A DNA stretch of 64,000 bases from NCBI GenBank assembly GCA_903892515.1, contig CAITIS010000088.1:1-64000 (forward strand). The letters run 5' to 3'. This DNA comes from an uncultured Planctomycetota bacterium. Lineage in GTDB: Bacteria > Planctomycetota > Phycisphaerae > SM23-33. The notes under the pieces were generated by a model. The model saw only the letters and a list, made by a program, of their open reading frames with translations, did no database searches and was not told where the DNA came from. Below, in pieces: positions 1,371 to 20,297 of this stretch; position 1 is the stretch's first letter, and the number at the start of each line of letters is the position of its first letter. The position numbers and the translations under genes are program-made.

Positions 1371-1384
1371 GGCTTTTCCTCCTT

Positions 1385-1561
1385 TCAGTTATTGTGGAAA
1401 TCCTGGTGCTCGCGTTTCCAGGCCGCCACCAGCAGCGCCGTCAGCGCATCGACGCGGCGGTCCCACCTCTGCCGCTGCTCTGGAGTTTCCTCGTCGGCGA
1501 AGCGAACCGTGAACTCGTAGTCGCCGACCTTCTCGACAACCTCATCATCCGTGCCAACCAT
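1385..1561 (-). CDS. Small acidic hypothetical protein (58 aa)
   Basis: A short protein rich in Asp and Glu, with no recognised domain. I place the start at the ATG with GGAGG seven bases upstream; an in-frame ATG 24 bases earlier has no ribosome site and would add eight residues. The stop codon lies immediately before the ribosome site of the RepA-like gene, so the two are likely translated from one message. Small proteins in this position of integrated elements are often regulators, but nothing in the sequence shows a function. Confidence 0.5.
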   Translation of the reverse strand: MVGTDDEVVEKVGDYEFTVRFADEETPEQRQRWDRRVDALTALLVAAWKREHQDFHNN

Positions 1562-1618
1562 GTGCATGCCTCCGCAAAGATACATTTGTTAGGTAACCCC
1601 GACTCCATGCCCACCGCA

Positions 1619-2314
1619 CTATGGGATCGCCTTCCGCGCTGCTTCCGAGGCCGCCTCGGCCTTCTTCAAAGTGGTTTCGGCGTCGGCGAGTTGCCGCCTG
1701 GCTTCCTTGAGCCTGTCCTGGAGCAACGATTCATCCCGCTGGCTGGTGAGCGTGATCGGCACATGCGCCAGACGCTCCTCGATGTTGCGGACGATGCCTC
1801 GCCAGCGATTGCGCTCTTCGAAAGCGTTCATGCGGGCCATGTCCACCTGCCGGAAGCTCTCCTCGGCGTTACGCCGCTCGATCATCTGGAGAACCTCATC
1901 CGGCGCCTCGTTCGCCGGCAACAGCCCCTCGTCGTGCATCCGCAGAAGCTGACGGGAGCTTTCCTCAACTGCGTAAGCGGCCTTCTGTGCGACCTCGGCC
2001 TCGTAGGCGGCCTCTTGAATCTCGCTCTCCAACTTGGCGATCTCCGCGTTGGCCCGCGCCTGGACCTTCTCGAAGCGGCTGTTTGCCCCGGCCGCATCTT
2101 TTCGCAGACGCGGAAGCTGCTCGACATGGGCAACCTGTTCGCGGCCCCGGCTGACTTTCTCCAGCAAGTCATCGCCTTCAGCGCCGCTCAAGCCAGCGTC
2201 AGCCGCCAGCGCCAGCAGTTCCTCCGCCGGGCGCTGCCGCCACGCGGCGGCAATGAACTTCTCCCGAGCAGCCATACGAGTCTGCGTCTGAAGCGCTTCC
2301 AATTCAGCCAACAT
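1619..2314 (-). CDS. Coiled-coil hypothetical protein (231 aa)
   Basis: The protein is dominated by Ala, Glu, Arg, Lys and Leu in heptad-like spacing, most clearly at residues 60-125 and 170-228, so it is probably a long helical coiled coil. There is no signal peptide or membrane segment. A GGAGGAAGGA ribosome site precedes the ATG, and the start overlaps the end of the upstream HEXXH gene by 11 bases, which indicates translational coupling. No family is recognised. It could be a scaffold, a phage-like structural protein or a DNA-binding accessory factor; context only says it belongs to the same element module. Confidence 0.6.
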   Translation of the reverse strand: MLAELEALQTQTRMAAREKFIAAAWRQRPAEELLALAADAGLSGAEGDDLLEKVSRGREQVAHVEQLPRLRKDAAGANSRFEKVQARANAEIAKLESEIQEAAYEAEVAQKAAYAVEESSRQLLRMHDEGLLPANEAPDEVLQMIERRNAEESFRQVDMARMNAFEERNRWRGIVRNIEERLAHVPITLTSQRDESLLQDRLKEARRQLADAETTLKKAEAASEAARKAIP

Positions 2315-2861
2315 GTTCAGTTCCTTCCTCCGGCTGTGCCGGTAATGTGATCACGCCACGGCTGAACAATGCCGTGGCAACCTCAACAATATCTTGCTGG
2401 TATTCCTGGACGAATGCCTCGGCCGACGAGAAGACCCACTCGTGCCGCTCGGCCCAAATCTGGGGCTCGGCTTCATAGTCCAGAATGCACCACTGGGCAA
2501 CGGCCATTCGGTCGGACATGATCCTGCCCTGCGCCGCCTTCACGCGCTGGGCGGTTTGGGGTTCGGCAATCTCGGCTGGCATCGCCGCAACCTTCTGCGG
2601 CGGGGCGTACTGAAGAGCCAGCACGTCGCCGAAGATGCCGGCGGCCGCCACCATCGCTTCCTTGAACGAGGCCGGAACGCCGTCGCCGACAGTAGCCACG
2701 CCGCTGCCATCGGCGAACACCATCGCCTTGGCGGATTTCTTCAGCAGCACCTGGGCTGAGACAAGGTGGGCCGCTTCGTGCATGCATCCATACCACATCC
2801 TCATCCGACGATCCGACTCGCCATCGACGCCAGCCTTGGCCTCAATGCGTTCAGTTGGCAT
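2304..2861 (-). CDS. Stand-alone HEXXH protein resembling the FtsH (M41) protease core
   Basis: Residues 28-32 read HEAAH, in a context (MHEAAHLVSAQ) close to the HEAGHAVVA zinc site of M41 peptidases, and the following 45 residues keep the family pattern of a Gly-rich turn and an Ala/Gly helix. The protein is only 185 aa and has no AAA ATPase and no membrane segment, so it is a bare protease-like domain. The third zinc ligand cannot be assigned by eye. The start has a GAGGAAGGAG ribosome site and overlaps the helix-turn-helix gene by 11 bases. It may cleave a repressor or may be a non-catalytic relative; both are inference. Confidence 0.5.
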   Translation of the reverse strand: MPTERIEAKAGVDGESDRRMRMWYGCMHEAAHLVSAQVLLKKSAKAMVFADGSGVATVGDGVPASFKEAMVAAAGIFGDVLALQYAPPQKVAAMPAEIAEPQTAQRVKAAQGRIMSDRMAVAQWCILDYEAEPQIWAERHEWVFSSAEAFVQEYQQDIVEVATALFSRGVITLPAQPEEGTEHVG

Positions 2862-3066
2862 TCAGACGCTCCTTCCTCGTGTTGGCCGCGTCGTCCAGGT
2901 CGCGCCCCAGCAAAACCCATGACGCCCGGCGCAGGTCAGCCTCGGTCCAGATGTACGCGCCGCCCGGTCCCTTGGCCGGCGGCTGGATGCGACCTTCCCA
3001 CACGGCCCGCGTCAGTGTGCCGGGCCGCAACCCGAGCCTCGCGGCGGCCTGCTTCGTCCCGATCAT
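2851..3066 (-). CDS. Small helix-turn-helix protein (excisionase/AlpA-like)
   Basis: This 71-aa protein begins with a typical helix-turn-helix of the excisionase/MerR type: TKQAAARLGLRPGTLTRAVWEGRI, with a following Pro-Gly-Ala-Tyr wing and a Trp-Thr-Glu-Ala-Asp-Leu helix. Proteins of this size and layout bind DNA as excisionases or as AlpA-like activators of integrated elements. An AAAGGAG ribosome site lies nine bases before the ATG. It heads a minus-strand set of tightly overlapping genes ending in the RepA-like ATPase, which supports a mobile-element origin. No integrase is visible in the window. Confidence 0.68.
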   Translation of the reverse strand: MIGTKQAAARLGLRPGTLTRAVWEGRIQPPAKGPGGAYIWTEADLRRASWVLLGRDLDDAANTRKERLNAN

Positions 3067-3248
3067 GTGTCCACGCTCCTTTCATCAGCAGCGCGTGATT
3101 CCTGCACGCGCCTCTGACATAACTGAAAGCGGACGGGCGGATGGGGGCGGATTTCGGGGGAGATCGGATGTGCTCGCGACGGAAAACCTGAAGGATCAGG
3201 CGTTTGGAGAGATGAAGAAATCCGGCGGATTTCTGAGGGGCGTCCGGT

Positions 3249-4892
3249 TTAGTCCGCTTCGTCAGCCTCGGGCGGGTCTATCTCTTCCGGCAACGCGATG
3301 CTGCGGCCAAAGCTTCGGCCGGCCTGCGGCGTGTTTTTCTGTTGGCCGAGGTGCTTTCGGGCCTGTCGAACGTAGCGCTGCCACGTCTCGAACGCGGGAA
3401 TTGGCGAGCCTTCGTTGTGACCCTTCGCCCAGTCATAGCATTCGCGGTCGGTGGCTTGGTCGGGTACGTTGGGCACGGCGGAAAGATACTGCCCGTAGGC
3501 ATACTTGACTCGCTCAGGCAACAGGTCGATCCACTCTCTCTTGCCACTGCTGAGCGCCTCCTGGGCGGAGGCCATCTTTTCAGCCAGGGATTCCATCTTG
3601 GAGGTTCGGTCGGCACTGGCTGGGACGGGAGGCAGAATTGCACCAGTGACTGCAGATGCCGGCTTGCCCGCATACGCCTGCATGGCCTCAAACATCCCGC
3701 AAAGCGCCCGCGACAGGGCTTCCCCGCCCGCCGTGCCCATGTCGCCGATTCCGGCGCTGACGGCGACGACCTTCTGGTCCTGGAACTTCTGCATTCGCAC
3801 CAGAGCCCCAGCGCCACGAACAGGCTCACGCCCAGCGATGCCGTCCGGCAGAAACCGAGGTCGGCCGTCAAAGAACCCACGCCTCAGCGTGAAGTCGAAG
3901 ACCATCTGCGATTGGCCCGCGGCGATGTCTTGCCGGGCCAGGATGCCCTGATCGGTCAGCCGCCATTCCGACGGTTCCAACCGCTCGCAGTGGAAAGGAT
4001 TGGCCTGCCGCGTCTGGTCGGCCATCCACGCGCGAAATACATCCCGCCAGTCCGGCCACAATTGCGCGGCCAGCGGTTCCATCGCCTCCACCAACCCGTA
4101 CTCGCCCGTCGCCTCCAGCGTCGCCTCCACAACCAGTGGCTGACCGGCCATCTTCAGCCGAAACCGCTCTCGGCGCCGAACCATCCCGGCGGCGGTCAGC
4201 AGGAAAAGGCCCTGCGACTGGACTTCGGTCAGGTCGTCGGGACGGTACGTCTGCCACACGTCAGGGATTCGGGCCAGCATCTCGGCAATCGCCGGCTCAA
4301 GCATCTCCGGCGGCGCGATGATGCGGCTGGCGATCTTGGACTCGCAGTCATCTTCCGCATATTCATGCCCGCCGGACACGTTCACATCCCGTTGCTCGTC
4401 ACGGGCTGGCAGACGGGTCAGCGCGAAATCGTCGGATGGTGAGGCCTCGATCAGAACTTCATCTTTGGCAGACGGCAAGCCAGCAGGCTCCGGTGTCTTC
4501 GGCTCGCCCCAATTCGCCGCCAGCCACGCACTCCATTCCGCGTATTGCTCATCCGTGATCTTCCGTGGGCCGGATGACAGGCGCAGCCGGCAGGCCGACA
4601 GCCACTTGTCGAGGATCAACCGGCGGTGCTCCGTCAGGCAGGCCAGCTTGCGATTCGATCCACGCCATTCGGCCAGGAGGTCGCATTCCTCGGTGGTCAG
4701 CACGGGGAAGTCGCCGCGCTGGAGAAGAGCGGAAACCCGCCGCAGCCGGTCACACCCTTCCGCCTGACCGTCAGCCTCCAGCCGCTCGATCCGCTCCGAG
4801 ATACGCTCCAGAACCTTCTGAATGTCTGCGGGTACTTCGCTCATGCGATGCTGGGCTACCTCAACTGCCAAACGCTTCATCCTGAGCACCAT
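3249..4892 (-). CDS. Hypothetical protein (547 aa) of the element module
   Basis: A long open frame with normal coding character but no domain I recognise. The N-terminal 120 residues are helical and charged, residues 130-200 are a probable linker, and the central part (about 205-390) has alternating hydrophobic strands and helices. No signal peptide or membrane segment is evident. The start is uncertain: the first ATG has no clear ribosome site, and an in-frame ATG 16 codons downstream (protein beginning MSEVPAD) is an alternative. It lies between the Hsp70/kinase gene set and the helix-turn-helix gene, all on the minus strand, and could belong to either. Confidence 0.55.
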   Translation of the reverse strand: MVLRMKRLAVEVAQHRMSEVPADIQKVLERISERIERLEADGQAEGCDRLRRVSALLQRGDFPVLTTEECDLLAEWRGSNRKLACLTEHRRLILDKWLSACRLRLSSGPRKITDEQYAEWSAWLAANWGEPKTPEPAGLPSAKDEVLIEASPSDDFALTRLPARDEQRDVNVSGGHEYAEDDCESKIASRIIAPPEMLEPAIAEMLARIPDVWQTYRPDDLTEVQSQGLFLLTAAGMVRRRERFRLKMAGQPLVVEATLEATGEYGLVEAMEPLAAQLWPDWRDVFRAWMADQTRQANPFHCERLEPSEWRLTDQGILARQDIAAGQSQMVFDFTLRRGFFDGRPRFLPDGIAGREPVRGAGALVRMQKFQDQKVVAVSAGIGDMGTAGGEALSRALCGMFEAMQAYAGKPASAVTGAILPPVPASADRTSKMESLAEKMASAQEALSSGKREWIDLLPERVKYAYGQYLSAVPNVPDQATDRECYDWAKGHNEGSPIPAFETWQRYVRQARKHLGQQKNTPQAGRSFGRSIALPEEIDPPEADEAD

Positions 4893-5009: not shown

Positions 5010-5789
5010 CTATTGGAAGAAGAGCAGAAGCACCAGGGCAAATGCCCATGAAGCCATGGCGGCCATGAGGACAAGCAGCGCAGTTATTCGCATGGCCATG
5101 ATTGTCCTCTCGCCTAATCTGCGTCCGCTCAGGGACTGTACGACTTCCATGATCGCCTCCCCGCCATTTAGGGTTGGCAGCGGCAACAGATTCAAAGCAG
5201 CGAAGACGACGGCCAGAATGCCAAAGGCAGCACGATATTCGCCTTGCCCCAGGTCACGGAAGTATGCCGCCAGCGCGTCCACGCCATGACTGCGAGGTGA
5301 TACCGTCCCGCCGATAAAGGTTGGGTAGAAGTCTCGCATCGCGTGCAGGCAATCGCTGCCAAGGAACAAGTAGCCCATGATCAGCAGCGTGAACGGGCCA
5401 CTGACGGTAATCAGCAACCGCTTCCAGAGGTGGAGTTGCTCATAGCTGCGACCATCATTGAAATCCAGTTCGTCGAACTTCATCGAGCCAGAGAAGGGCC
5501 AGTAACCAATTTCGACCGGGATGCCGCGAACGCTAAAGTGGCACCACGGCTTGCCGGCGAATATGGACACGCGCTCGATAGCCGCACCACAACAGGCCCC
5601 AGCAACAGCCCTTGCGCCGACGGAAACTGCCGTCAGCGGCACGAAGAATAGCACTGCAAGAACCAACTCCAGTCGGTGGTGGCCCCAAATGGCTATTGCC
5701 ATGCAAATCAAGATAGGCAGCGCATGGCGTTTCATCAGCCGCCAGCACGTGCTCTGTCGGCTGCTGCCAACATCGGCCGGGGCAGCCAC
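5010..5789 (-). CDS. M50 (site-2 protease)-like membrane protein lacking the HEXXH motif
   Basis: The 259-aa protein has hydrophobic segments near residues 22-60, 132-153, 188-206 and 233-258. Residues 199-213 (LNLLPLPTLNGGEAI) match the second active-site region of M50 proteases, where LDGG is usual, and residues 70-104 keep the G-pattern that follows HEXGH in RseP-type enzymes. However, the HEXXH position reads VGARAVAG (about residues 57-64), and the LDGG aspartate is Asn208. Both zinc-binding motifs are therefore lost, so this is probably a pseudo-protease that binds rather than cuts a membrane partner. It starts with GTG directly after the FHA stop codon, supported by GGAGG eight bases upstream. 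It is the last gene of the kinase-Hsp70 set. Confidence 0.65.
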   Translation of the reverse strand: MAAPADVGSSRQSTCWRLMKRHALPILICMAIAIWGHHRLELVLAVLFFVPLTAVSVGARAVAGACCGAAIERVSIFAGKPWCHFSVRGIPVEIGYWPFSGSMKFDELDFNDGRSYEQLHLWKRLLITVSGPFTLLIMGYLFLGSDCLHAMRDFYPTFIGGTVSPRSHGVDALAAYFRDLGQGEYRAAFGILAVVFAALNLLPLPTLNGGEAIMEVVQSLSGRRLGERTIMAMRITALLVLMAAMASWAFALVLLLFFQ

Positions 5790-6314
5790 CTAGACATCCT
5801 CCAGGCGTTCGTCGACCTTAACGAAGAACACGTACGTGCTGACCTGTGAAGCTCCCAGCGAAACCACATCCCCATGCGCAAGAACGTGCCCGCTGTCGCC
5901 TTCGAGACGCTGTCCGTTCACGAAGGTTCCGCACGTGCTCCCCATGTCCAGGAGCACGAAGGTTGGGATGGATTCTCTCCACCGGCGGAGCACTTTGGCA
6001 TGCAGCCGCGAGGTCTCGCGGGGCCCGAAATAGACGGTATCGGCCACGGCATAGTCGGCAATGCCATCCGAAGGCTTCTCAACAGGGGTGGCTGCGCGTC
6101 CGATGACTACCTCCTCAACCGTCAATGGTATGATGCCCGTGGTCGCAGGCCCCGTGCCCAGCAGGTAAGCGCCGGGTCTCAGCTGCTGCATCGCTGCCAT
6201 GATGTGCGCCAACCGGTCGGATCGGTCGGTATTCATAATGGCCGCCAGTTCATTTAGCCGTGATAGGCTAATGAGCTGGTCAATCTTCAGGATGATTGGG
6301 TCAACTTTCGCCAT
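5790..6314 (-). CDS. FHA-domain protein
   Basis: The C-terminal 105 residues form a forkhead-associated domain: the conserved Gly-Arg of strand 3, SRLHAKV with the phosphothreonine-contacting Ser and His, then DMGSTCGTFVNG and HGDVVSLG. The usual Asn of the STNGTF motif is Cys here. FHA domains bind phosphothreonine peptides, and a Ser/Thr kinase lies in the same gene run, so this protein probably reads its phosphorylation marks. The N-terminal 65 residues are helical and unassigned. The start follows the TPR gene by four bases; the stop abuts the GTG of the M50-like gene. Confidence 0.85.
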   Translation of the reverse strand: MAKVDPIILKIDQLISLSRLNELAAIMNTDRSDRLAHIMAAMQQLRPGAYLLGTGPATTGIIPLTVEEVVIGRAATPVEKPSDGIADYAVADTVYFGPRETSRLHAKVLRRWRESIPTFVLLDMGSTCGTFVNGQRLEGDSGHVLAHGDVVSLGASQVSTYVFFVKVDERLEDV

Positions 6315-6318
6315 CGGC

Positions 6319-6765
6319 TCATTTCCCGATCCAACCGCGCCACCTCAGCACGGCGAATGCCGCAAGCAACAACACGCCGGATGTTATGGCGGAGGCCATG
6401 ATCGCCACGGCGACGCGCAGCCGGAACGGGTATCTGCGATCCTCCACCATGACGGATAAGGCGTCCTCAAATGCCTGGTTGCCCGGTGCAAGCGCGAGGG
6501 CGTCCCGCCAACAGGCTTCGGCAGCGGCGTACATCCCCTGTTGGGCATAGACTTTCGCCTTCAGATCGAGCGCCGATGGCCCCAGGGGGCTGTCGGATGG
6601 CAATGCCATCAACATGGCGACAGCCTCGGCGTACCTCCCGCGCCTTGCAAGGCGGTTGGCCCGCAGCAGGATCTCTCGGTCCTTTGCGGGATCATCTCGC
6701 CGCCCAGTGCCGTGCCCGGCCGCAAGCCGCACCATCGTGTCATATTGTCGCTGAGATACGGTCAT
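6319..6765 (-). CDS. TPR-like protein with a C-terminal membrane anchor
   Basis: Residues 25-100 contain two helix pairs of tetratricopeptide type (RANRLARRGRYAEAVAML, then AKVYAQQGMYAAAEACWRDALALAPGN). Residues about 115-140 form one hydrophobic helix followed by a short basic tail, so it is probably tail-anchored in the inner membrane with the repeats in the cytoplasm. I prefer the ATG at the start of MTVSQRQ over a GTG three codons earlier. It follows the Hsp70 gene by 12 bases. TPR proteins are common adaptors for Hsp70, but binding to this chaperone is inferred from position only. Confidence 0.7.
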   Translation of the reverse strand: MTVSQRQYDTMVRLAAGHGTGRRDDPAKDREILLRANRLARRGRYAEAVAMLMALPSDSPLGPSALDLKAKVYAQQGMYAAAEACWRDALALAPGNQAFEDALSVMVEDRRYPFRLRVAVAIMASAITSGVLLLAAFAVLRWRGWIGK

Positions 6766-6777
6766 GCACTCCACGCC

Positions 6778-9297
6778 TTACTGCGCGATAATTGTGCCGC
6801 CGAAGCCGCCCCTCGCCTCCGCAGCCTCGCGTTCGTCAGGCGGAAGCAATGCGATCAACTGGCGCACCGCCGCCTTCAGGGCCTCAAAGTCGTTACTGTT
6901 GATCGCCCGCTGCGCCTGCGCGAACAGCTTCTCGGCCGCTGCCTGATCCCGCATGTGGCCGCGTCGCTCCTGCAGATACTCAAGGTAGCCGACCCAGAAG
7001 CTCGGTTGACGCACGATCACGCGAGCGCCCAAGTCGCGCAAATCCTCTGTCCTGGTCCGCAAGAGTTCGATGCGTTCTTCGCTAATCGCGCGTTCAACGT
7101 CAGCAGCTAGAACGGACAGACGCTCCTTCTCGTCCGGCTCACCGTGCCCCTCAACCACTTCGCGCGTGGATTCCAGTTGTCGGTGCGCCTCCTGGACCAA
7201 GCCGGGCCATTGCAAAGCAGCCTCAACATCATCGTTCAGGATCTTTAGGGCTCGGAGTTTCCTGTCGGCTTCGCCAAGCGCCTCAGGATCGGCCTGGGCG
7301 GCAGCCACCCGCCGCTGCACTGTGTCTACCGTATGCTCAAGCTCAATCTGGTGAAGCGCCGCATCTGCCCTCGGGTCCGCATGCTTCTCGGCCTTCCGTC
7401 GCAGCTCAGCCAGTCGCTCCAATTCCGATTCCAGTTCCACCTTTAACTCTGTGGGAGACCGAGTTACAACTCTGTTTTCGAAGACCTCTTGAAACTCCTC
7501 ATCCAGAATGGGAATAAAGGCTTTCGCCTTCGTCGTTCTGGAAGTGTCAACATCGATTGTGATTTCGATTTCACTGCCAAATGGGACGTCACGCCTAACC
7601 CGCGGATCAGTCGGAAGGATTATGAGCGAGCCGATCAGAGCATTGCGATCAGACTTGGCTCCGCTAGTACCCTCAATTACAGGAATGCAGATCATATTGT
7701 CTGGCCCGGCGGGAATGTTCTTTCGGAGCGCGTAGGCATTGTGGCACACCTTCATGGTCCGTGCCGGCAAGGGGTCTCCCTTCATGAACAGCCAGACCGG
7801 CTTGTTGCCATGCGTATCGATCCCCATATTGTGCGTGAGCGGGGGACTTGTGATGACCATGCCAACCGTGTAGGCGAAGCGATCCGGCGAGCAGGCCAGT
7901 TTCGTCCCCCGGGCATCGGTCAGCATGATCTGAAACTCACACTTCCGACCCTTCTCAGCGTGTACTTCGGTCATGAACGTGCCGGTCGACGAGACGCGAA
8001 TGGCACCGCTGCGCCATTGGCTACGCTGCTCAACGATCTCCACAGTCAAACCTGCCGTGCCTGTCCCCGGCGGTGGCGTGATCCGGCCACCAACCATCGG
8101 GTCGAGTTCGCTCCCTACAGGCTCGTATTCCAACTGGATCTTGTACGTTCCTGCGGCCACCGGCCCTTGCTGGGCGTCAAGCCGCTGGGCGCCTGCGAAC
8201 ACGGCGGCCCCGCGGGCCACGACAGTGATCGGGTCGACACTGAAGTCCAGTCGTGTTTCAAGTTCGCCAGCCACCCGTTCCTGGAGCCACGGGAACAGGC
8301 TGGACCCACCGACCAGTATCGTCTTCTCAATGTCCCGCCCCGACAGGCCCTTTTCCTGGAGCGCCTTCTTGCACAGGTTGATGGACTGAGATACCCAAGG
8401 TTCAATCACCCGTTGGAGGTCAGCTGGCATGAGCTCACAGGCGAAGTCGATAGCGTTCCCTTGGTCATCTTCACATAATCCTTCGATCCAGATTTCCGCG
8501 GGCTGCCTGGTCCGCGATACCTGGATTTTTGCTTCTTCCGCGTGATACTTCAGTTTGGCCAAGGCCGACTTCCATCGCCGCTCTTGGGTATTGCGGTTGT
8601 CCGGAAATGATGCGAGACGATGGGCAGCTTTCAACTTGGGAACGAGCAACTTGTCGACAATATCCCAGTCAATATTCTTCCCGCCCAGGTAGTTGTCCCC
8701 GGCATGGTTGACGACCTCGATGACCCCATCACGAAGCTGGATCACGGCGGCATCGAACGTGCCGCCCCCAAAGTCATATACCAGCCAGAACACCTTGTCG
8801 GCGGCCGACTGGAAGCCGTATGCTAACGCGGCTGCGACAGGCTCCTGGAGCAAGGGGCTCATGGAAAAGCCGGCAAGTTCCGCCGCTCGCCGCGTCGCTT
8901 CGCATTGCGGCAACTCAAAAGCGGCTGGAACGGTAATCACCGCAGCACTCAGCTCTTCGCCCTTGCTCATGTGGACATCGGTCTTCAGCGACTTGAGTAC
9001 CTCTGCCGACAGTTCCTCAGGCAACATCTTCCGTCCGGTGCGATGAAACGGCTTCTGCCATTGTTGCCCCATTCGCAGCTTGAACTCGACGGCCGCGTTC
9101 TCATCGTCATCGATATGGCGTGCCCGCGCCTCGCGGCCCACGAACATCTTACCCCGCTTGTCGAACCACAGGGCCGACGGTGTGATCGATGCTCCTTCCT
9201 TGTTGGCAATAACCTCGGTGGTCGTGCCTACCAGCAGTGCCACGGTGCTGTTTGTCGTCCCCAGGTCGATTCCATAGTCGATTGTGGTTCGCGCCAT
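6778..9297 (-). CDS. Divergent Hsp70 (DnaK family) chaperone
   Basis: The ATPase domain is complete: GIDLGTTNS (residues 9-17), VYDFGGGTFDAA (173-184) and LVGGSS (328-333), as in DnaK. The rest is not canonical. About 110 residues of extra, apparently beta-rich sequence (roughly 385-490) follow the ATPase domain before a weak substrate-binding domain, and the last 200 residues are a long charged helical region. At 839 aa it is some 200 residues longer than DnaK. It has no DnaK-type C-terminal tail. The start follows an AGAGGA site; an upstream in-frame codon is less likely. Adjacent GrpE-like, TPR and kinase genes suggest a dedicated chaperone machine rather than the housekeeping DnaK. Confidence 0.92.
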   Translation of the reverse strand: MARTTIDYGIDLGTTNSTVALLVGTTTEVIANKEGASITPSALWFDKRGKMFVGREARARHIDDDENAAVEFKLRMGQQWQKPFHRTGRKMLPEELSAEVLKSLKTDVHMSKGEELSAAVITVPAAFELPQCEATRRAAELAGFSMSPLLQEPVAAALAYGFQSAADKVFWLVYDFGGGTFDAAVIQLRDGVIEVVNHAGDNYLGGKNIDWDIVDKLLVPKLKAAHRLASFPDNRNTQERRWKSALAKLKYHAEEAKIQVSRTRQPAEIWIEGLCEDDQGNAIDFACELMPADLQRVIEPWVSQSINLCKKALQEKGLSGRDIEKTILVGGSSLFPWLQERVAGELETRLDFSVDPITVVARGAAVFAGAQRLDAQQGPVAAGTYKIQLEYEPVGSELDPMVGGRITPPPGTGTAGLTVEIVEQRSQWRSGAIRVSSTGTFMTEVHAEKGRKCEFQIMLTDARGTKLACSPDRFAYTVGMVITSPPLTHNMGIDTHGNKPVWLFMKGDPLPARTMKVCHNAYALRKNIPAGPDNMICIPVIEGTSGAKSDRNALIGSLIILPTDPRVRRDVPFGSEIEITIDVDTSRTTKAKAFIPILDEEFQEVFENRVVTRSPTELKVELESELERLAELRRKAEKHADPRADAALHQIELEHTVDTVQRRVAAAQADPEALGEADRKLRALKILNDDVEAALQWPGLVQEAHRQLESTREVVEGHGEPDEKERLSVLAADVERAISEERIELLRTRTEDLRDLGARVIVRQPSFWVGYLEYLQERRGHMRDQAAAEKLFAQAQRAINSNDFEALKAAVRQLIALLPPDEREAAEARGGFGGTIIAQ

Positions 9298-9311
9298 ATT
9301 TGTTCGTCCTC

Positions 9312-10004
9312 TCACTCGGTTGGATGTGCCTGTTGGCCGGCGTCGGCGGCCGGCGCGCCTGTATCGCGATCCGCTGGTTCCGCAGCACCGCTATCGGTGG
9401 CTTCGCCGCTTCCGGGCAAGTCGGCGGGTCTGGGATCGTCACGCTCGTCGATCGGCCGAGCCACGATCACGTCGGCCCGCTGAATAAGAATGTCCTTGTA
9501 GAAGACCGACGGCTTGATGGTCTCGTGAATCACTTCCGTGCCTACGCCTTCCATCGGCTGGAACGTTATCGGGTTTACCGCCATGCCCGGCACATACCGC
9601 TGGCCAGTGAGGTCCTGAATCTCGATTCCGCCAGATGCAAGGGCGTCCCAAGCTGCCTGGACGTGCCGTGGAAGATGCCGGAACTCGCTGGGCAACTCGA
9701 CGCCGGCCTGGTTCTCCAGTTTCGCTCGTGCCCGCCAGATTGCGGTAGCCACGGCAGCTACGACCTTGAGCAGATGCTTGGAGTCGGCATCGAGTCCTCT
9801 TGCAGCCATGGGTTCTCTGCCAGCCGGCGCTATGCCCAACATCGCATCTTCGGACACCATTACGATGTCCGGCGACTCGTCGATTCTGAACGGCCCTGGA
9901 TGCGTCATCTGTCGCGCATCATCCACGGCACGCCGCAGGATGACCTTGATCCTGCCCGCCTTGCGGCGACTTTTGGGTCCGTTACCATTCTCGTCAGCGT
10001 TCAT
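9312..10004 (-). CDS. GrpE-like nucleotide exchange factor
   Basis: Residues about 105-195 resemble the C-terminal half of GrpE: a helix leading to a beta domain with GGIEIQDLTGQRYVPGM, then a conserved ETIKPSVFYKDILIQRADVIVA stretch that parallels the GrpE ending on a strand near VVVA. The N-terminal long coiled coil of true GrpE is short or replaced, and a Pro/Ala/Asp-rich tail of about 40 residues follows. By family it would release ADP from Hsp70. It is encoded directly upstream of the divergent Hsp70 gene (15 bases from the likely start), which fits a dedicated partner. An AAGGA ribosome site precedes the ATG. Assignment is by pattern, not by a strict motif. Confidence 0.65.
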   Translation of the reverse strand: MNADENGNGPKSRRKAGRIKVILRRAVDDARQMTHPGPFRIDESPDIVMVSEDAMLGIAPAGREPMAARGLDADSKHLLKVVAAVATAIWRARAKLENQAGVELPSEFRHLPRHVQAAWDALASGGIEIQDLTGQRYVPGMAVNPITFQPMEGVGTEVIHETIKPSVFYKDILIQRADVIVARPIDERDDPRPADLPGSGEATDSGAAEPADRDTGAPAADAGQQAHPTE

Positions 10005-10021
10005 GGCACTGTTCCTTATCG

Positions 10022-12334
10022 TTATCGTTCGCCGCTGTTGTAGCGACGCACCCTGTCATTTACCGAATCGATTTCGCGGCTGTACTCTGCGTACTTGCCC
10101 TCGCGCTCGAGGAGAAGTGCATTATGCTGTTTGACGAGCGCGTTGTGATTTTCGAGAGCTTGCTGATAGAGAGACTGATTCACATCAAGGCCCAGTCGAG
10201 CCTGGCGCTCGTAGCCCTCGATCTCCTGTTTGTAGCGATTGATGCGACTTGATAGCGATTCCAGATTCGAGTCCATCCGCTCGATCTCGGGCTCCATGCT
10301 CTTGGCTCGCGCCTTGCCTGCGTCGATCTGAGTCGATAGCACGGAGAGCGAGTACCTCGGCGGGTCCGTCCGTGGTGGCGAATAGCCATTCGACGGAGGT
10401 GTCCGAGGGCTGTCAGAGGGATACTTGTACGGGCTTGAATAGTCGTCGCCGCGAGGAGACCCCGTCGCTGCATGCCCCCACCTGTCATCCATGATGCCGA
10501 AGACTATTGAGTGCCCAACCGCCGCGAGGACAACAGCCGCTCCAATAACCTGAACGGCCGCTTTCCCTCGCAACAACGAGCGCCCCCGCGAGTATTTCGA
10601 TGCGGTCTTTGGGGTTGATGAGGAAGCGTTGCTCTTCGCAAAAGCGTCAGCATATAGCGGGTTGTGGAAGCTGAACACCGCAAGTGGCCCCATTACGCCT
10701 GTCATCGCAACAGCAGGACCTCGTGCGGCATGGGTGTCTTTCAGGACATGCACCTTCACAAGACAGGCCAACACGCCGAATGCGACAGCCGAGAGCACTA
10801 TGCCAATCAGCAGAAATGGGACGTACTCGATGCGATTTATGTTAACGCCGATGACGAATGAAGCAATCACGGACAGTCCGACAGAAAGCAGGACAAGAAC
10901 TGCCCTTTGCCAGGTAAGTTCCCGCTGATGTCCGCGGCACTCATTGCACAGCGGAAACGCGAAGGAGCGCGTGTGCTTTATGCGCCTGTTGTACCCGGCG
11001 TTCTCTTCCCAGGAGTAACTTACCGACTGCTCGGCATCTGCCGGCCCGAGGCAGCATGCGCAGACACGCGGGACGCTGATCCGTTCCCCAGAAACGCCGA
11101 CCTCATAGACCTTGTTGCCAACGACTTGGATCTTCAGGCTCTCGTATTCACGCTCTTGTTGCAGGTTCTTCTCGACCTGAGCAATGTCCGCTCGAAGCCG
11201 ATCCCGCAAGCCGTCGTGGAGGGCGATGCTTACCGCCTGCTTCAGTAACCCGACGCATCGCTCCCAGCCCCCGGTGCTATTCCCATAGTCAATGGTGCAA
11301 TCACGAATCGCCTGTGCGACGGCGTCGCACGCGGTTCCTCGAAGATGGTGTTTGTTGTCGAGCAGGGCGCAGATGCTGGCCAAGAGGGGGCCCGTGTCGA
11401 TCATCAACTGCTGCGCAATCGTATCGGCGTGTACAGCGTCGGCCTTGCACTTTCCGGGCACAGGTTCGCACATCTGCTTGATTTGTTCGACCAGCGGAGC
11501 CGCTTCGCGATCAAGTATGGCAGCAGCCAGGCTTTCGTCAAAACCAGCAATGTGCGCACGGGCCAGATGCTTCCGCGCGCCGTCGACGTCGCCCCGTTTG
11601 GCCGAACTGATCGCCAGCCTGATACTGATGGTTAGCAGCACCACCGGCAAGGTGCGGCGCAGTCGAGAAGCGACATCCACCTTGAACCGCGGATCATTCC
11701 AGTCACGGCGCAACTCCTCTATTCGTCCGACTACTCGGTCCCAGGCAGCTTCGTCTTTCGCTACAGCAGCCCAGTGATCAAGAGCCACTTGCCAGTGCTT
11801 GTCACGCCGAGCGGCAGACTTCTCGTCGGGGCGTTCCTCGCCCCGAAGCTCACGTTCCATGTCGAGCACGACGGCGTGGTGAAGAACGGCCAGGTTGTGG
11901 GTTGCAACATCCTTATGCTGCCCGTCTCTTGCGAGCTGCGACCACAGGGCATGAGCACCTCGAAGGTCGGCCTGCCGCATAAGTGTAAGCCCGCGATCAT
12001 CATCAGAGCACTGGTGATCAAGTGGCCAGAACCAGAACACTTCGTGGACTAGCCGCGATTCTGGATCGTGAAGTCGCTGATTTGCCTTTCGGATGGCGTC
12101 AGAATCGGGGGCCGGCTCGAGCGGAAGGATGACGGCTTGGCGAGGGGCCGCATCATCGCCGAGTTTCTCCAGCATCTTCATCTTCCTCTGTCGCCTGGAC
12201 AGATCTCCGCTGGAGACATCTATAGGCAGCCCGAGGATACGGAACGCATTGAGGCGATACAGATCGGGCGTCGCGAGTTCGAGCATCGCTCCGCATTCAC
12301 TGTCCGCGCCCAATGATGTACCCGACTCAGCCAC
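10022..12334 (-). CDS. Membrane protein with possible degenerate J-like N-terminus, zinc ribbon and coiled coil
   Basis: This 770-aa protein has several parts. Residues 24-110 (YRLNAFRILGLP, then RRQRK, then KANQRLHDPESRL) resemble a J-domain layout of helices but lack the His-Pro-Asp motif. Residues 110-400 are helical and repeat-like. Cys425/Cys428 and Cys463/Cys466 can form a zinc site. Hydrophobic segments lie near 476-497, 504-526 and 590-612, then a Ser/Pro/Tyr-rich linker and a coiled coil from about 665 to the end. It starts at a GTG with AAGGAG nine bases upstream. Lying between the kinase and the GrpE/Hsp70 genes, it may recruit the chaperone to the membrane; that is inference. Confidence 0.6.
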   Translation of the reverse strand: MAESGTSLGADSECGAMLELATPDLYRLNAFRILGLPIDVSSGDLSRRQRKMKMLEKLGDDAAPRQAVILPLEPAPDSDAIRKANQRLHDPESRLVHEVFWFWPLDHQCSDDDRGLTLMRQADLRGAHALWSQLARDGQHKDVATHNLAVLHHAVVLDMERELRGEERPDEKSAARRDKHWQVALDHWAAVAKDEAAWDRVVGRIEELRRDWNDPRFKVDVASRLRRTLPVVLLTISIRLAISSAKRGDVDGARKHLARAHIAGFDESLAAAILDREAAPLVEQIKQMCEPVPGKCKADAVHADTIAQQLMIDTGPLLASICALLDNKHHLRGTACDAVAQAIRDCTIDYGNSTGGWERCVGLLKQAVSIALHDGLRDRLRADIAQVEKNLQQEREYESLKIQVVGNKVYEVGVSGERISVPRVCACCLGPADAEQSVSYSWEENAGYNRRIKHTRSFAFPLCNECRGHQRELTWQRAVLVLLSVGLSVIASFVIGVNINRIEYVPFLLIGIVLSAVAFGVLACLVKVHVLKDTHAARGPAVAMTGVMGPLAVFSFHNPLYADAFAKSNASSSTPKTASKYSRGRSLLRGKAAVQVIGAAVVLAAVGHSIVFGIMDDRWGHAATGSPRGDDYSSPYKYPSDSPRTPPSNGYSPPRTDPPRYSLSVLSTQIDAGKARAKSMEPEIERMDSNLESLSSRINRYKQEIEGYERQARLGLDVNQSLYQQALENHNALVKQHNALLLEREGKYAEYSREIDSVNDRVRRYNSGER

Positions 12335-12352
12335 GCAATTCTGCTCCTTCGA

Positions 12353-13453
12353 TCACATGCAAATTCCTCGCCGCCACAATGCCAACTGAGACTGGTAGCG
12401 ATCCCGCAGTTCAGGTGTCTTGTTGATTGCCTCCTCCAGCAGATCGGCCGCACTCATGAGGCTGCCGGGGGCTTTGGACATTTCAATAGCGCGCCGCACC
12501 ATGTCATGGGCGGCACTCGCATCCGTGGGCGAACGCATCCCCATGGCGCTCTTGCCGTCTCCGGGCTGAGCACTGCTTGTTGGGGACGAGCTGATGTCAG
12601 GCCGCCCCGGACGCCAGCGATTCAGGTCTTCCAACATCGCCGACGCGTCAGCGTATCTTTCGCTCGGATTCCTGGTAAGGCAGCGAGAAAGGATGGAATC
12701 GAGCGATGAGTCCACGGCCATGTTGTACACGCTCGCGGGTCGTAGCGGTCGCACAAACCGCTTGGCTTCGGCGATGTCCCGTTCATCGAGCTCCGGGTAC
12801 GGAAGCGTGTCGGTGAGCAGCAAGTACAGGGTGGTGCCAAGTGCCCAGACATCCGCCGCCGGCGAGTCCTGGTTCTCGAAGGATTCCGGGGGCTTGAAGC
12901 TCAGCGTGCCCTTGGCGCTGACCAACAACGTGAGTGGATTCACCCTCTTGGCCAGGCCGAAGTCACCCACGCGAACACGCAGCCCGGCCCCGTCGTAACC
13001 GACGAGAATGTTCTGGGGCTTAATGTCGCGATGGACGACCGGCGGTTCTTCGGCATGCGCCACCGCGATGCCCGCGCACACCTGCTTCATGACATCGACG
13101 GCCTGTTGAACAGGCATGAGGTTATCGCGATAGGACCGCCAAAATCGGTCAAGGCTGCCACCGGCCACGTACTCCATCGTGAAGAACCCGAACTCCCCGA
13201 GCGGTAACTCCAGCGTGTTCGCGTCAAAGACTCGGACGATGTTCGGATGCCCGATTCTGGACAGCAACAGGGCCTCGCCGAGCATCTGCTCAATCTCTTC
13301 CACGGTCATGCCGGGCGTCTTCAGAACCTTCATGGCTTGACGACCCAGGAAACGATGCTGGACACGATAGACCTCGGCGAAAGCGCCCTCGCCGAGGTAT
13401 CGCTCTACCGAGTACGTCTCCCGGATTCTCTGTCCTTCCTTCAGCAGTGCCAT
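12353..13453 (-). CDS. Eukaryote-like Ser/Thr protein kinase
   Basis: All catalytic motifs are present: Gly-loop GEGAFAEV (residues 21-28), Lys42 in MKVLK, HRDIKPQN (141-148), DFG (164-166) and a KPPE variant of the APE motif near 187-190. The kinase domain ends near residue 285. A Ser/Pro-rich linker and about 50 residues resembling a tetratricopeptide unit follow. No membrane segment or extracellular sensor is seen, so it is probably cytoplasmic. The ATG at the start of MALLKEG is preferred over a GTG three codons earlier. It is the first gene of the minus-strand chaperone set that also contains an FHA reader, so the module may be phosphorylation-controlled. Confidence 0.93.
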   Translation of the reverse strand: MALLKEGQRIRETYSVERYLGEGAFAEVYRVQHRFLGRQAMKVLKTPGMTVEEIEQMLGEALLLSRIGHPNIVRVFDANTLELPLGEFGFFTMEYVAGGSLDRFWRSYRDNLMPVQQAVDVMKQVCAGIAVAHAEEPPVVHRDIKPQNILVGYDGAGLRVRVGDFGLAKRVNPLTLLVSAKGTLSFKPPESFENQDSPAADVWALGTTLYLLLTDTLPYPELDERDIAEAKRFVRPLRPASVYNMAVDSSLDSILSRCLTRNPSERYADASAMLEDLNRWRPGRPDISSSPTSSAQPGDGKSAMGMRSPTDASAAHDMVRRAIEMSKAPGSLMSAADLLEEAINKTPELRDRYQSQLALWRRGICM

Positions 13454-13676
13454 GAACGCCACCCGTGTTGGCTGCCCTCGGCGTCAGCCGCTGGTGCAGC
13501 CGTCCAGCCGCTATCGTTTGGCCGAACGTAAGTCAGCCGGCTGCCAAAGTCAAGAAGCAGGTTTGGCATCTGTTAGCATCTGCCGCTCGGCGGGGCGGCA
13601 TTGGGAAAACGCGTATCGCCGACGAATGGTCTCGGATAGGGGCCCCGGAACTGCGTTCTGCTGCCCCGGTCTAAGT

Positions 13677-13924: not shown

Positions 13925-13962
13925 AGAAAGCCTTCCCTTGAAAAGTGGGAGGCTTTCTTCTT
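13925..13962 (+). terminator. Terminator-like hairpin with T-rich tail
   Basis: AGAAAGCC-TTCCC pairs with GGGAGGCTTTCT (one bulged base) around a nine-base loop, and the second arm runs into a T-rich CTTTCTTCTT. This is the shape of a factor-independent terminator on the plus strand. No plus-strand gene is visible upstream, so it may end an unrecognised transcript or insulate the Nudix gene. Confidence 0.5.
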
Positions 13963-13990
13963 GCGCAAACGCCGATTAGGATCTGCGCTC

Positions 13991-14527
13991 ATGGCAGAGC
14001 GAGTTAAACGTGCCGGGGAGGCTGCTGGATTGCCAGCCTGTGAGCAAAGGTGGACTGGCCAAGGCCGGGCGCCTTTTCAAGTGCTTGTCCTGCCGTATCG
14101 CGTCGCGGGCGTGAGAGTCCAATACGCCATCTTCAAGCGGGCCGATGCCGGCTACTGGCAGTTCATCGCTGGCGGGGGAGAAGGCAGCGAACTGCCCATC
14201 GAGGCCGCTCGTCGGGAGGCCTGGGAGGAGGCCGCGATCCCGATGACGGCATCGCTGCACCCATTGGAGTCGCGCAATACAGTTCCGGTGATGGAGCTGG
14301 CGGGATTCCTGCGCTGGGGGCCGGACGTGCTGGTTGTACCGGAATACACTTTTGCGGTGCATGCGAGCGATGCGGAGCTGCGAATCGGGCCGGAGCACAC
14401 GGAATTCCGCTGGGTCGATTACGACACCGGCCGCGAGATGCTGCACTGGGACAGCAACCGCAACGCGCTGCACGAGCTGAATCACCGCATAATCAACGGG
14501 ATGGTTCCCGGCCAAGAGCAGCCGTAG
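13991..14527 (+). CDS. Nudix hydrolase
   Basis: The Nudix box is easily read: G-x5-E-x7-REAWEE-x-A-I, in the stretch starting GGGEGSELPIEAARREAWEE, with Ala in place of the last conserved Gly. The box coordinates magnesium for cleavage of nucleoside-diphosphate-linked compounds. The protein of 178 aa has the size and layout of NudB-like (dihydroneopterin triphosphate) or dATP pyrophosphohydrolases, but the substrate cannot be told. The ATG start has AGGA nine bases upstream; a TTG ten codons earlier also has a GGGAGG site, but this lies within the terminator-like hairpin. No operon partner is adjacent. Confidence 0.85.
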   Translation: MAERVKRAGEAAGLPACEQRWTGQGRAPFQVLVLPYRVAGVRVQYAIFKRADAGYWQFIAGGGEGSELPIEAARREAWEEAAIPMTASLHPLESRNTVPVMELAGFLRWGPDVLVVPEYTFAVHASDAELRIGPEHTEFRWVDYDTGREMLHWDSNRNALHELNHRIINGMVPGQEQP

Positions 14528-14528
14528 G

Positions 14529-14581
14529 GTGTGCAGGTTCTTCGCCGCGCTGTTGTTGTTTGCGGCGAAGGTTCTGCACAC
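14529..14581. repeat. Large palindromic hairpin, copy 1
   Basis: GTGTGCAG...TTCGCCGC pairs with GCGGCGAA...CTGCACAC over 20-base arms with a four-base mismatch patch and a 13-base loop. It begins two bases after the Nudix stop codon and could act as a terminator, though no T tract follows. A related palindrome is found 21 bases downstream. Confidence 0.7.
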
Positions 14582-14602
14582 GCGTGAGGCCTCGCACGTC
14601 CC

Positions 14603-14645
14603 GTGTGCAGAACCTTCGCGATGAAGCCGCGAAGTACCTGCACAC
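14603..14645. repeat. Palindromic hairpin, copy 2
   Basis: GTGTGCAGAACCTTCGCG pairs with CGCGAAGTACCTGCACAC over 18-base arms with a few mismatches around a seven-base loop. It shares the GTGTGCAG/CTGCACAC ends with copy 1, so the two look like members of one repeat family. Confidence 0.65.
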
Positions 14646-14736
14646 CCTACAACTCGCTGCACACCCCGCGCGACTACAGTTCTGACGTCCCACGCGGCCC
14701 ACGAAATGATGAGGAGCCGATCTGGCTGGCGACCAG

Positions 14737-15039
14737 TCACCCGAGGCCGGTTCGCTCTCCACGTATCCCGAAACCTAGTTTGTTGGCGTTCAGCAGGAGT
14801 GCAGCTACTGCAACTGCTGCCGCAAGCATGACCCAGTGCTCCGCCCACTCGATCCGTTTGTATTCCTCCTGCGTGCCGTATCTCAGCACATGGTTAACAT
14901 GGACCGCTATCGTGCGGTTGGCGCTCGTGTCCGGTTCCGGCGGCAGGGCATAGGAGTACTTCACATGCCAGTAGGTCGTCCAAGTTAAGGCCGCGAAGAG
15001 GTTCAGGATGAACACGCATACGACGATCTTGTTGAGCAT
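14737..15039 (-). CDS. Small membrane protein, unknown (100 aa)
   Basis: Two hydrophobic helices (residues about 3-24 and 68-86) flank a polar segment of some 40 residues with Tyr, His and charged residues, so the middle part probably faces the periplasm. No family is recognised. The ATG at the start of MLNKIVV is preferred over a TTG three codons upstream; an AGGG lies nine bases before it. The downstream neighbour on the same strand is the intergenic repeat region, and the upstream HlyD-like gene ends 52 bases away, so it may be co-transcribed with that gene. Confidence 0.5.
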   Translation of the reverse strand: MLNKIVVCVFILNLFAALTWTTYWHVKYSYALPPEPDTSANRTIAVHVNHVLRYGTQEEYKRIEWAEHWVMLAAAVAVAALLLNANKLGFGIRGERTGLG

Positions 15040-15091
15040 TATCCGCAACCCTATTAGACGCGTCGGAGGCTCTGTTGCTGGGTTCCCGTTG

Positions 15092-16243
15092 TTACCCCTG
15101 CATCGCGGTGATGTCCACGAGTTGGCCGGGGACCAAGTTCATGCCATGAGGCACGGCGATCAGGATGGGCCGGCCCCATTCCGGGCGGGTGGGGTCGAGC
15201 CGCTGGTGGGCCGGTATTTCCTGGACCGCAGGCCCAAGTTGCAGGACCGTCGCGGGAACGGGCTGGCCGGCGGGCGGGCGAGTCTGCAGGAGCATCGTCG
15301 CGCCGACCTTGGGCTGAGTAGGCTGCCGGTCGCGAATATACGCCACGATGGTCGGCGTGCAATCGGCCGTGATGGAGAGAATCTCATCGCCGGCCTGGAC
15401 GACCTGGCCGGGACGGTGCAGGATCGCACATATCTTTCCCGACGCCGGCGCCTTTATCGCACCGCAGGCGATTTGCAGTTCCAGTTCGTGCGCCCGCGCT
15501 TCGGCAGCCGACCGGGCCTTGCGGATCGGATCCAGGAATGCCTCCAACTCCGACGGCTGGGTCGAGGGAAAATCACTCTGGCGCGTCTCGGCCGATTTCA
15601 GGTCGAGCTGGGCCTGGGCCATTTCTCGCTTGGCGCCTTCAATGATCTGGTTGCTTTGGTCGCAGCGCAGCTGGAGATCCTCGACCTCAAACGTGGTGGC
15701 CGCACCGGCCTGGCGGAGCTTTTCCGTGCTATGCAGGAACATCTCGGCCCGCGCCAGCCGGACCTGCTCAGATTCGATCTGGGTTTGCAGCGAGAGGATC
15801 TTCAGCCGGTACGTTTCCAAGTCCACGCCCAGCCGTCGCCACTCGGTGAGCCAGTTGTACTCGCGATCGGTTTCTTCCTGGCGGATCTTGGCGGCGACGG
15901 ATTCGAGTTCTTTCTCCTGCCGCGATACCTCTTCCCGCAGCGCCGTCAAGCCGGCCAGACGCGGCTCGTCATCGAGCTGGGCGATGCACTGGCCCTGCTG
16001 GACCTGGTCGAAAAGCTGCGGCGAACCGCTGCTCAAGGCCGTGAGGATGCCTGCACACGGCGCTCGCACGGGTATGCTGGTGACCTGCACCTCGCCGACG
16101 AGTTGAGGCAGCTGCGGATTGTGTTGCCATAGCCAACCAGTACCCAGCACGGCCCCAACGAGAATTATCGCCGGCAGCAACTGGTGTCGAATCTGTCGAA
16201 GATGAACTCGTAAAGGCGTTCGAATGCGCTTCGGTTGAGTCAT
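15092..16243 (-). CDS. HlyD-family periplasmic adaptor (membrane fusion) protein
   Basis: One membrane helix (about residues 22-40) is followed by a lipoyl-like half (SIPVRAPCAGILTAL), two long coiled-coil helices (about 100-255), the second lipoyl half (CGAIKAPASGKICAILHRPGQVV) and a beta-barrel end. This is the standard order of HlyD/EmrA adaptors, which link an inner-membrane transporter to the outer membrane. No transporter or outer-membrane factor is encoded beside it, so it appears orphaned here. A CCGGAG site precedes the ATG. The length (383 aa) is normal for the family. Confidence 0.85.
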   Translation of the reverse strand: MTQPKRIRTPLRVHLRQIRHQLLPAIILVGAVLGTGWLWQHNPQLPQLVGEVQVTSIPVRAPCAGILTALSSGSPQLFDQVQQGQCIAQLDDEPRLAGLTALREEVSRQEKELESVAAKIRQEETDREYNWLTEWRRLGVDLETYRLKILSLQTQIESEQVRLARAEMFLHSTEKLRQAGAATTFEVEDLQLRCDQSNQIIEGAKREMAQAQLDLKSAETRQSDFPSTQPSELEAFLDPIRKARSAAEARAHELELQIACGAIKAPASGKICAILHRPGQVVQAGDEILSITADCTPTIVAYIRDRQPTQPKVGATMLLQTRPPAGQPVPATVLQLGPAVQEIPAHQRLDPTRPEWGRPILIAVPHGMNLVPGQLVDITAMQG

Positions 16244-16712
16244 AAATACTCCGGATCCTGCAAACCCGACTCCTCTTTACGCATGCACAGATGATAAGGA
16301 TCAGAAACGCCGGACAAGCTGTCGTGTCCGCTGCCTTGGCTGACAAATTGCGGGCGAATACTGTGACGCCGCCGCAGCAGCGGCCAAGCTCGTCCGCGCG
16401 TCGCAAAACAGCAGCACTGCCGCGGTATCCGCGGCTTTGTGAACAGCCGTTTGCTGGCAACGACCGCCAGCAATACTCACAATTATACTGGGCTTTGTCG
16501 GTTTTTTAAGCGAATTCCCGGCCGCCCATGCACTTGTGGAGTCCCTGAACGGCTGCATGAATTGCTTCTAAGCAGAAGGGCATTGCAGGATTCAGTTTTT
16601 ACATTCGGCATCTTCTCGCGGAAGGTCGTCGGGTAATATGCTGAGATTGCTGGCTGCGGCGGACGCCCGGTCCTTTGGCCAGCGTACTCAAGACCGGGCA
16701 GGAGCAGATGAT
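16244..16712. other. Intergenic region, no gene seen
   Basis: About 470 bases between the divergent HlyD-like and DUF3616 genes. It holds an eight-base inverted repeat TTGCTGGC/GCCAGCAA at 16451-16473, followed by an AT-richer stretch with TATACT at 16484-16489 but no matching -35 box. I see no supported coding frame. Confidence 0.4.
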
Positions 16713-17978: not shown

Positions 17979-17996
17979 TGGTTTCTCTGTTAGAAT
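17968..17996 (+). promoter_or_regulatory. Candidate sigma-70-type promoter of the TS/radical SAM gene set
   Basis: TTGACC and TAGAAT are separated by exactly 17 bases, close to the TTGACA-17-TATAAT consensus. The -35 box overlaps the end of the DUF3616 gene. Transcription would start near 18003, giving a leader of about 175 bases before the first gene. Confidence 0.55.
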
Positions 17997-18136
17997 CACG
18001 TTAAGTTGTGGCGGCCACAGTCTGGCCAGGCGGCAGGTTTTCGCGCCGGCTGGCGGCACTAGGATCGCGGGCTGGTGCGCGTCCGCCGCTACGAAACGCA
18101 TATTTGCTTCCCCGTAGATGAGTCGCGTACTTTACA

Positions 18137-18157
18137 GGGATGCCCTCGCGGCATCCC
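18137..18157 (+). promoter_or_regulatory. Leader hairpin upstream of the TS-like gene
   Basis: GGGATGCC and GGCATCCC are perfect eight-base arms around a five-base CTCGC loop, 20 bases before the start codon of the TS-like gene. In the transcript it would be a very stable stem close to the ribosome site, so it could limit translation or act as a protein- or RNA-binding element. Confidence 0.4.
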
Positions 18158-18176
18158 CGCACTTGGATTGGCAACA

Positions 18177-20203: not shown

Positions 20204-20297
20204 ACGATCCGCATGCGAATGGTTTTGCGACAATACGGCGCTTAGTCCGCCGTTGTTATAAGAAGGGATTCTTGTGACCCAGCAGGAGACAGTGCGA

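Follow-up and report, generated by a model that had tools for sequence, protein, structure and literature searches.

The window, that is, the whole stretch of 64,000 nucleotides analysed here, covers the first 64 kb of contig C88, from a draft genome of 4.89 Mb. Seven co-directional genes lie on its minus strand from position 13462 to 5010, with intergenic gaps of 18, 17, −4, 3, 4 and 0 bases. The Pfam domains found among the seven proteins are a protein kinase, an Hsp70 nucleotide-binding domain (NBD), TPR, FHA and M50, and no significant Pfam match was obtained for the 770-aa and 230-aa proteins. ORF coordinates and gap sizes agree with a preliminary description made from the sequence, which had noticed seven minus-strand genes with short gaps, and the observation of this set is confirmed. 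Its naming of a Ser/Thr kinase, a divergent Hsp70, a tail-anchored TPR protein, an FHA reader and an M50-like pseudo-protease also holds.

The PknB-like Ser/Thr kinase (12353–13462, minus strand; 366–369 aa, ATG start at 13453) carries PF00069 (E 4e-44). The catalytic Lys, HRD (HRDIKPQN) and DFG were all found by motif scan, as expected for a PknB-like enzyme, and PknB provides the nearest solved structures. The FHA phospho-threonine reader (5790–6314, minus strand; PF00498, E 3e-11) has an N-terminal helical extension and its key residues (G-R, S..H, N) in place, with homologues in the related loci L011 and L050. By motif, competence of both kinase and FHA protein is supported. The TPR protein (6319–6774, minus strand; PF07719, E 1e-7) ends with one C-terminal transmembrane helix (residues 119–145 in the TM scan), and we infer that it would act as a membrane anchor. 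Homologues of it occur in L011, L050, L051, L075 and L079, and also in L076 and L077 when the L079 protein is used as query. The M50-family membrane protein (5010–5789, minus strand; PF02163, E 5e-13) lacks HExxH in the motif scan, and LNG replaces the LDG aspartate. As the metal ligands of M50 site-2 proteases are missing, it is classified as a pseudo-protease. Its gene has no counterpart in any relative locus and is found only in the window.

The 770-aa membrane protein (10022–12334, minus strand) was characterized by a J profile, HHalign and a TM scan. It contains a J-like domain (residues ~25–105), a helical repeat domain, a ribbon with Cys pairs (~425–470), three hydrophobic stretches (473–616), a proline-rich linker and a coiled coil. 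The top PDB matches of the family profile (A6, 18 loci aligned) are DnaJ J-domains (E 9e-4 and up), and comparison with the DnaJ domains of the same genome gave an HHalign probability of 73 (P 3e-5; cross-control about 0). The HPD motif is present in none of the 18 J-like proteins; hence, the protein is named J-like and not a J protein, and it may fail to stimulate the ATPase of Hsp70. The AF2 model of the N-terminal half (pLDDT 69) consists of a small N-terminal helical domain, helical repeats and the strand-rich Cys-pair ribbon. Foldseek with this half returned no match at E≤0.001 and weak matches to helical repeats, including P58IPK. The whole protein as query retrieved only weak fragments in relatives because of fast divergence outside the J-like part. 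The preliminary description had seen a large membrane protein, in accordance with the hydrophobic stretches, but had overlooked its identity as a J-like co-chaperone.

The 230-aa protein (9312–10004, minus strand; conserved core at residues ~75–185) is a GrpE-like nucleotide-exchange-factor homologue, conserved across 18 aligned loci. It does not match PF01025, for which the sole match of the genome is on contig C136. The earlier assignment as GrpE-like thus finds no backing in Pfam but is supported by profile–profile comparison: the family profile matches the beta domain of canonical GrpE with an HHalign probability of 91.5 (P 8.5e-7; cross-controls about 0). Against single PDB sequences the profile matches weakly (E 0.18), and its pentatricopeptide PDB matches were rejected as repeat artefacts. 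The AF2 model had a pLDDT of 45, too low for use.

The Hsp70 (6778–9315, minus strand; 845 aa, or 839 aa from an internal ATG at 9297) contains the PF00012 NBD (E 4e-74) with the phosphate motifs of an actin-like NBD intact (GIDLGTTNS and DFGGGTFD). The NBD (residues 1–376) is followed by an inserted beta-type domain (~377–488), a weak match to the beta part of the substrate-binding domain (SBD-beta, ~489–595) and a long helical C-terminus. For positions 113–219 of the C-terminal profile, DnaK SBD-beta ranks first as a weak match (E 0.014). In the NBD tree, the 25 Hsp70s of the system are separated from 12 other Hsp70s, including DnaK and HscC, with support of 100/100, which places the members from several phyla in a common descent. 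The nearest kin of the window protein are found in one Lentisphaerota MAG and one Phycisphaerae MAG.

With the 770-aa protein identified as a J-like co-chaperone, the core of the locus is a complete J/GrpE/Hsp70 triad. Elsewhere in the host genome, Hsp70 genes are located on contigs C21, C98 and C112, GrpE on C136, and J proteins on C117, C136, C98 and C112. Since canonical DnaK, DnaJ and GrpE and further Hsp70 genes are encoded separately, the seven-gene module is an extra set.

Relatives were sought with a profile built on the C-terminal part of the Hsp70, and long matches were counted. The lineage was found in 4 of 392 Planctomycetota (own genome included), 7 of 288 genomes of the Lentisphaerota group, 3 of 398 Pseudomonadota (the phylum of a Komagataeibacter genome) and 1 of 5,426 E. 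coli, as well as in 14 plasmid records (plus plasmid L126) and five IMG/VR contigs. Planctomycete A1 matches of ≤45 bits were short, lay in frames of 519–935 aa and were left out of the member count. Komagataeibacter L013 and L014 proved to be other Hsp70-like proteins whose C-terminal part has no match. Scans of viral contigs with the window and rhizobial Hsp70s found none, and the phage searches gave either matches over the NBD only, from ordinary Hsp70s, or none.

In ~25 loci from several phyla that are not truncated by the end of a contig, the J-like, GrpE-like and Hsp70 genes stand together. The sole exception is L073, where an orphan Hsp70 is surrounded by housekeeping-like genes. Variants of individual genes were also observed. 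In L077 (545–3832), two tandem J-like genes precede the GrpE-like and Hsp70 genes. In Sinorhizobium medicae T10 (L056, 8969–13371), an ISNCY transposase splits the Hsp70 gene, and in Aeromonas (L054) the Hsp70 is annotated as two ORFs. In a Nitrosopumilus MAG (L012, 9998–12941), the Hsp70 gene is frameshifted and the J-like gene truncated, and both lie between IS4/5-type transposase genes; either they were transferred to an archaeon or the contig was binned wrongly.

The partners of the triad follow the lineage. The order kinase–J–GrpE–Hsp70 is kept in L010, L050 and L051, and the order Hsp70–TPR–FHA in L011, and in L050 with one inserted gene. This conservation shows the linkage to be more than chance. 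The kinase, J-like, GrpE-like, Hsp70 and TPR-TM proteins are common to the window, L050 and L051, and FHA occurs in the window, L050 and L011. L052 has the J-like, GrpE-like, Hsp70 and kinase genes, and the same four are the only ones in L010, whose kinase is 78% identical to that of the window. In Proteobacterial versions and in L074 of the Lentisphaerota group, a small GrpE-like protein, Hsp70, an AAA+ protein and the J-like protein are found, mostly with a peptidoglycan-binding membrane protein. Haliscomenobacter and L078 combine the J-like, GrpE-like (with a TM in L015) and Hsp70 genes with a kinase–AAA fusion. In E. coli HeN100 (L058, 19630–26413), the set comprises a small protein, Hsp70, an ATPase, a 229-aa protein and a 580-aa J-like protein. 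In most lineages, membrane proteins and a further ATPase with a signalling or remodelling role accompany the triad. In the fusion of L015 (13699–15513), HNE replaces HRD in the Ser/Thr kinase part. The gene inserted in L050 (11146–12144, between the Hsp70 and TPR genes) encodes a 332-aa protein with several Cys pairs and no Pfam match.

The preliminary description had proposed one linked, membrane-associated and accessory set, which would fall if the genes were found apart in relatives or formed a fixed housekeeping locus. Linkage and membrane association are upheld by the gene order in relatives and by the hydrophobic stretches of the 770-aa protein and the transmembrane helix of the TPR protein. 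Both refuting conditions largely fail, as the core remains linked across phyla and the genome encodes DnaK, GrpE, DnaJ and Hsp70 separately, and the accessory character stands. The seven genes are not a fixed set: none of the relatives has M50, and TPR and FHA are missing from L010. The earlier interpretation is partly supported: it overlooked that a triad core has received the kinase, FHA, TPR and M50 genes as lineage-specific additions. The phospho-regulation that it read from the gene content is putative, as is defence by the planctomycete form.

Mobility is evident at the locus and in its relatives. At 1–4892 the module adjoins a replication gene and three unnamed genes, in agreement with the mobile-element-like module reported earlier. 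The replication gene (3–1370, minus strand, cut by the contig end) encodes an AAA_25/RepA-like replicative helicase (PF13481, E 3e-44; PHROG 906 polymerase/primase, 183 bits) and by these matches is assigned to mobile-element replication. A 547-aa protein (3249–4892, minus strand) without significant match in Pfam or PHROGs has a patchy distribution (7 of 294 genomes, with two copies in one). It was considered as a machine member and dropped, having no match in the module-bearing relatives G166 and G285, and probably belongs to the adjoining mobile element and not to the chaperone machine. Within the same mobile-element module (2304–2861), a 185-aa protein with an HEAAH motif is a possible metalloprotease. 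In L018 and L054, the module is a Tn7-type cargo beside TnsA/TnsD/TnsE. Integrases are located near L071 and L084 and transposases near L050 and L072, and L052 has integrases at 2.6 and 19 kb and a primase-like gene at 15.7 kb.

Phages and plasmids use the DnaK/DnaJ/GrpE of their host. The module could similarly serve its carrier, with the element's own chaperones aiding its replication, transfer or takeover. The replication genes nearby (the AAA_25 ATPase of the window, the primase-like gene of L052 and the primase gene of L082) and the transposition genes of L018 and L054 point that way. However, the carriers are unrelated (a Tn7-like element, plasmids, chromosomal islands and prophage-like contigs), the Hsp70 C-terminal part has no match in 50,697 phage records, and membrane and peptidoglycan components would be odd for replication, so that we regard this service role as improbable.

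Known defence genes lie within ~8 kb of the module in seven sister loci, all of AAA-type, rhizobial or Bacteroidota versions. For instance, BREX is beside the module in L015, Zorya in L019 and a DrmC-like gene in L053. L055 has Gabija (GajA 912 bits, GajB 799 bits) and a type IIG system, L058 the RADAR protein RdrB (1521 bits), and L081 HmaA (2139 bits) with a PtuA-like ATPase. L082 is a viral contig on which a DNA primase is also encoded; there, a 721-aa QatC-like protein (6231–8396; 192 bits) lies ~1.2 kb from the module. When loci with viral-contig neighbours were left out, defence genes were present at 6 of 7 focal sites and clearly so in 2 of 6 control stretches of the same plasmids, a small and not significant difference (Fisher P 0.086). 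The check for nearby defence islands had been suggested with the preliminary description; it gave these matches in sister versions, and around the kinase–FHA loci (window, L010, L011, L050, L051 and L052, with few neighbours covered) none of the genes was recognised as a known defence gene.

An accessory module for envelope proteostasis or stress would also fit part of these data. A membrane-anchored Hsp70 would then act on dedicated clients, e.g., damaged inner-membrane proteins, adjusted by the kinase and FHA protein, and would be island-borne because islands carry stress genes as well. A membrane component is present in most lineages, in several of them with peptidoglycan-binding domains; TerB is a neighbour in L015; the orphan Hsp70 of L073 is among housekeeping-like genes; and no recognisable effector, nuclease or toxin was seen in the module. 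On the contrary, the lineage is very rare in every sampled phylum, is carried on Tn7-type elements and beside many unrelated defence systems, and the genome of the window has its own DnaK/DnaJ/GrpE. We consider the stress function rather unlikely, yet worth keeping in mind.

No named system with this content had been known to the preliminary description, and none was found in PADLOC or in the literature searched, which was open access only and limits the statement accordingly. No PADLOC 2.0.0 model matched the Hsp70, GrpE-like, FHA, TPR and M50 proteins; the J-like protein gave weak coiled-coil matches to LmuB only and the kinase matched a generic kinase part only. The closest description is the second theme of the GAP1-N2 conflict systems, a predicted conflict system that combines HSP70, GrpE and a DnaJ-fused FNIII protein (Kaur et al. 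2020, eLife, PMC7159879). The likeness concerns gene content. The module lacks FNIII, its HPD-less J-like domain is on a membrane protein, its GrpE is minimal and its partners are kinase/TPR/FHA or AAA+. The shared trio could mean that it is a version of this GTPase-centred system which lost the GTPase, but no GAP1-N2, GTPase, tubulin, MoxR or vWA domain was detected in the seven proteins (Pfam, E≤1), and the HSP70 theme was reported from actinobacteria and firmicutes (PMC7159879). Such an origin is very improbable.

Also close are the CoCoNuT type IV restriction systems, whose Hsp70-like CnuD occurs in defence islands, sometimes with the kinase module TerY-P (PMC11090510). CnuD accompanies McrB/McrC homologues or is fused to them, and its ATP motifs are degenerate (PMC11090510), whereas those of the module Hsp70 are intact and no McrB-like domain was found by Pfam in the seven proteins. 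Canonical DnaK/DnaJ/GrpE, HscA/HscB and HscC have the same three functional parts, with NBD and GrpE beta domain still recognisable, but the module differs by its separate Hsp70 clade, the extra domain before SBD-beta, the missing HPD and the minimal GrpE. The L018 version has an AAA+ resembling the IetA AAA ATPase of ietAS (PADLOC; 91 bits); no subtilisin-like IetS was recognised, and the IetA-like AAA+ is absent from the window version. A precedent for chaperone-based phage sensing is bNACHT25, which requires DnaJ and senses phage protein synthesis (PMC12169576). It borrows the DnaJ of the host, whereas the module encodes private chaperones and no NACHT protein.

Because relatives of the core are carried by plasmids, transposons and defence islands in distantly related bacteria, the module is probably an anti-virus sensing machine. 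We regard it, at about an even chance, as a mobile, dedicated and membrane-tethered Hsp70 switch that would sense protein stress caused by infection and most likely serves to defend the cell against phages or competing mobile elements. The defence role is probable through guilt by association with the sister versions, and is weaker for the kinase–FHA version, whose own neighbours show mobility and no recognised defence system.

In such a defence machine, Hsp70 would be held at the inner membrane by the J-like protein and the TPR anchor. Client proteins arising from infection or another insult would load Hsp70, and its ATP/ADP cycle, run by the module's own GrpE-like factor, would change the complex. 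The kinase may then mark a threonine on a partner at which the FHA protein docks, and the assembly would switch on a membrane output, for which the M50-like protein and the J-like protein, the latter because of its hydrophobic stretches, are candidates.

A bolder and tentative proposal, which we would not yet favour, is a new class of immune machines, in which infection-induced proteotoxic stress is sensed by a private Hsp70 cycle, run by a J-like membrane protein that lacks HPD together with a minimal GrpE-like factor. The output modules would be interchangeable: kinase/FHA/TPR in Planctomycetota and Lentisphaerota, an AAA+ ATPase with a peptidoglycan-binding membrane protein in Proteobacteria, and a kinase–AAA fusion in Bacteroidota. 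If true, this would be a transferable chaperone-based alarm, an Hsp70 machine serving immunity and not folding, and would tie bacterial proteostasis to innate immunity. It would also offer a simple J–GrpE–Hsp70 triad that can do without the HPD motif. None of the PADLOC models tested covers the C-terminal region of the Hsp70, which could become a marker for defence-finding pipelines, and the E. coli copy makes the defence question directly testable.

Beyond the module, at 13961–23188 of the window, a NUDIX hydrolase, a thymidylate-synthase-like protein, a B12-radical-SAM enzyme and a Ham1-type protein are encoded close together. A 567-aa protein of the same region appears by eye to have a pyruvate-kinase-like part and a P-loop nucleotide-kinase-like C-terminus, and the region forms an odd nucleotide-metabolism cluster.
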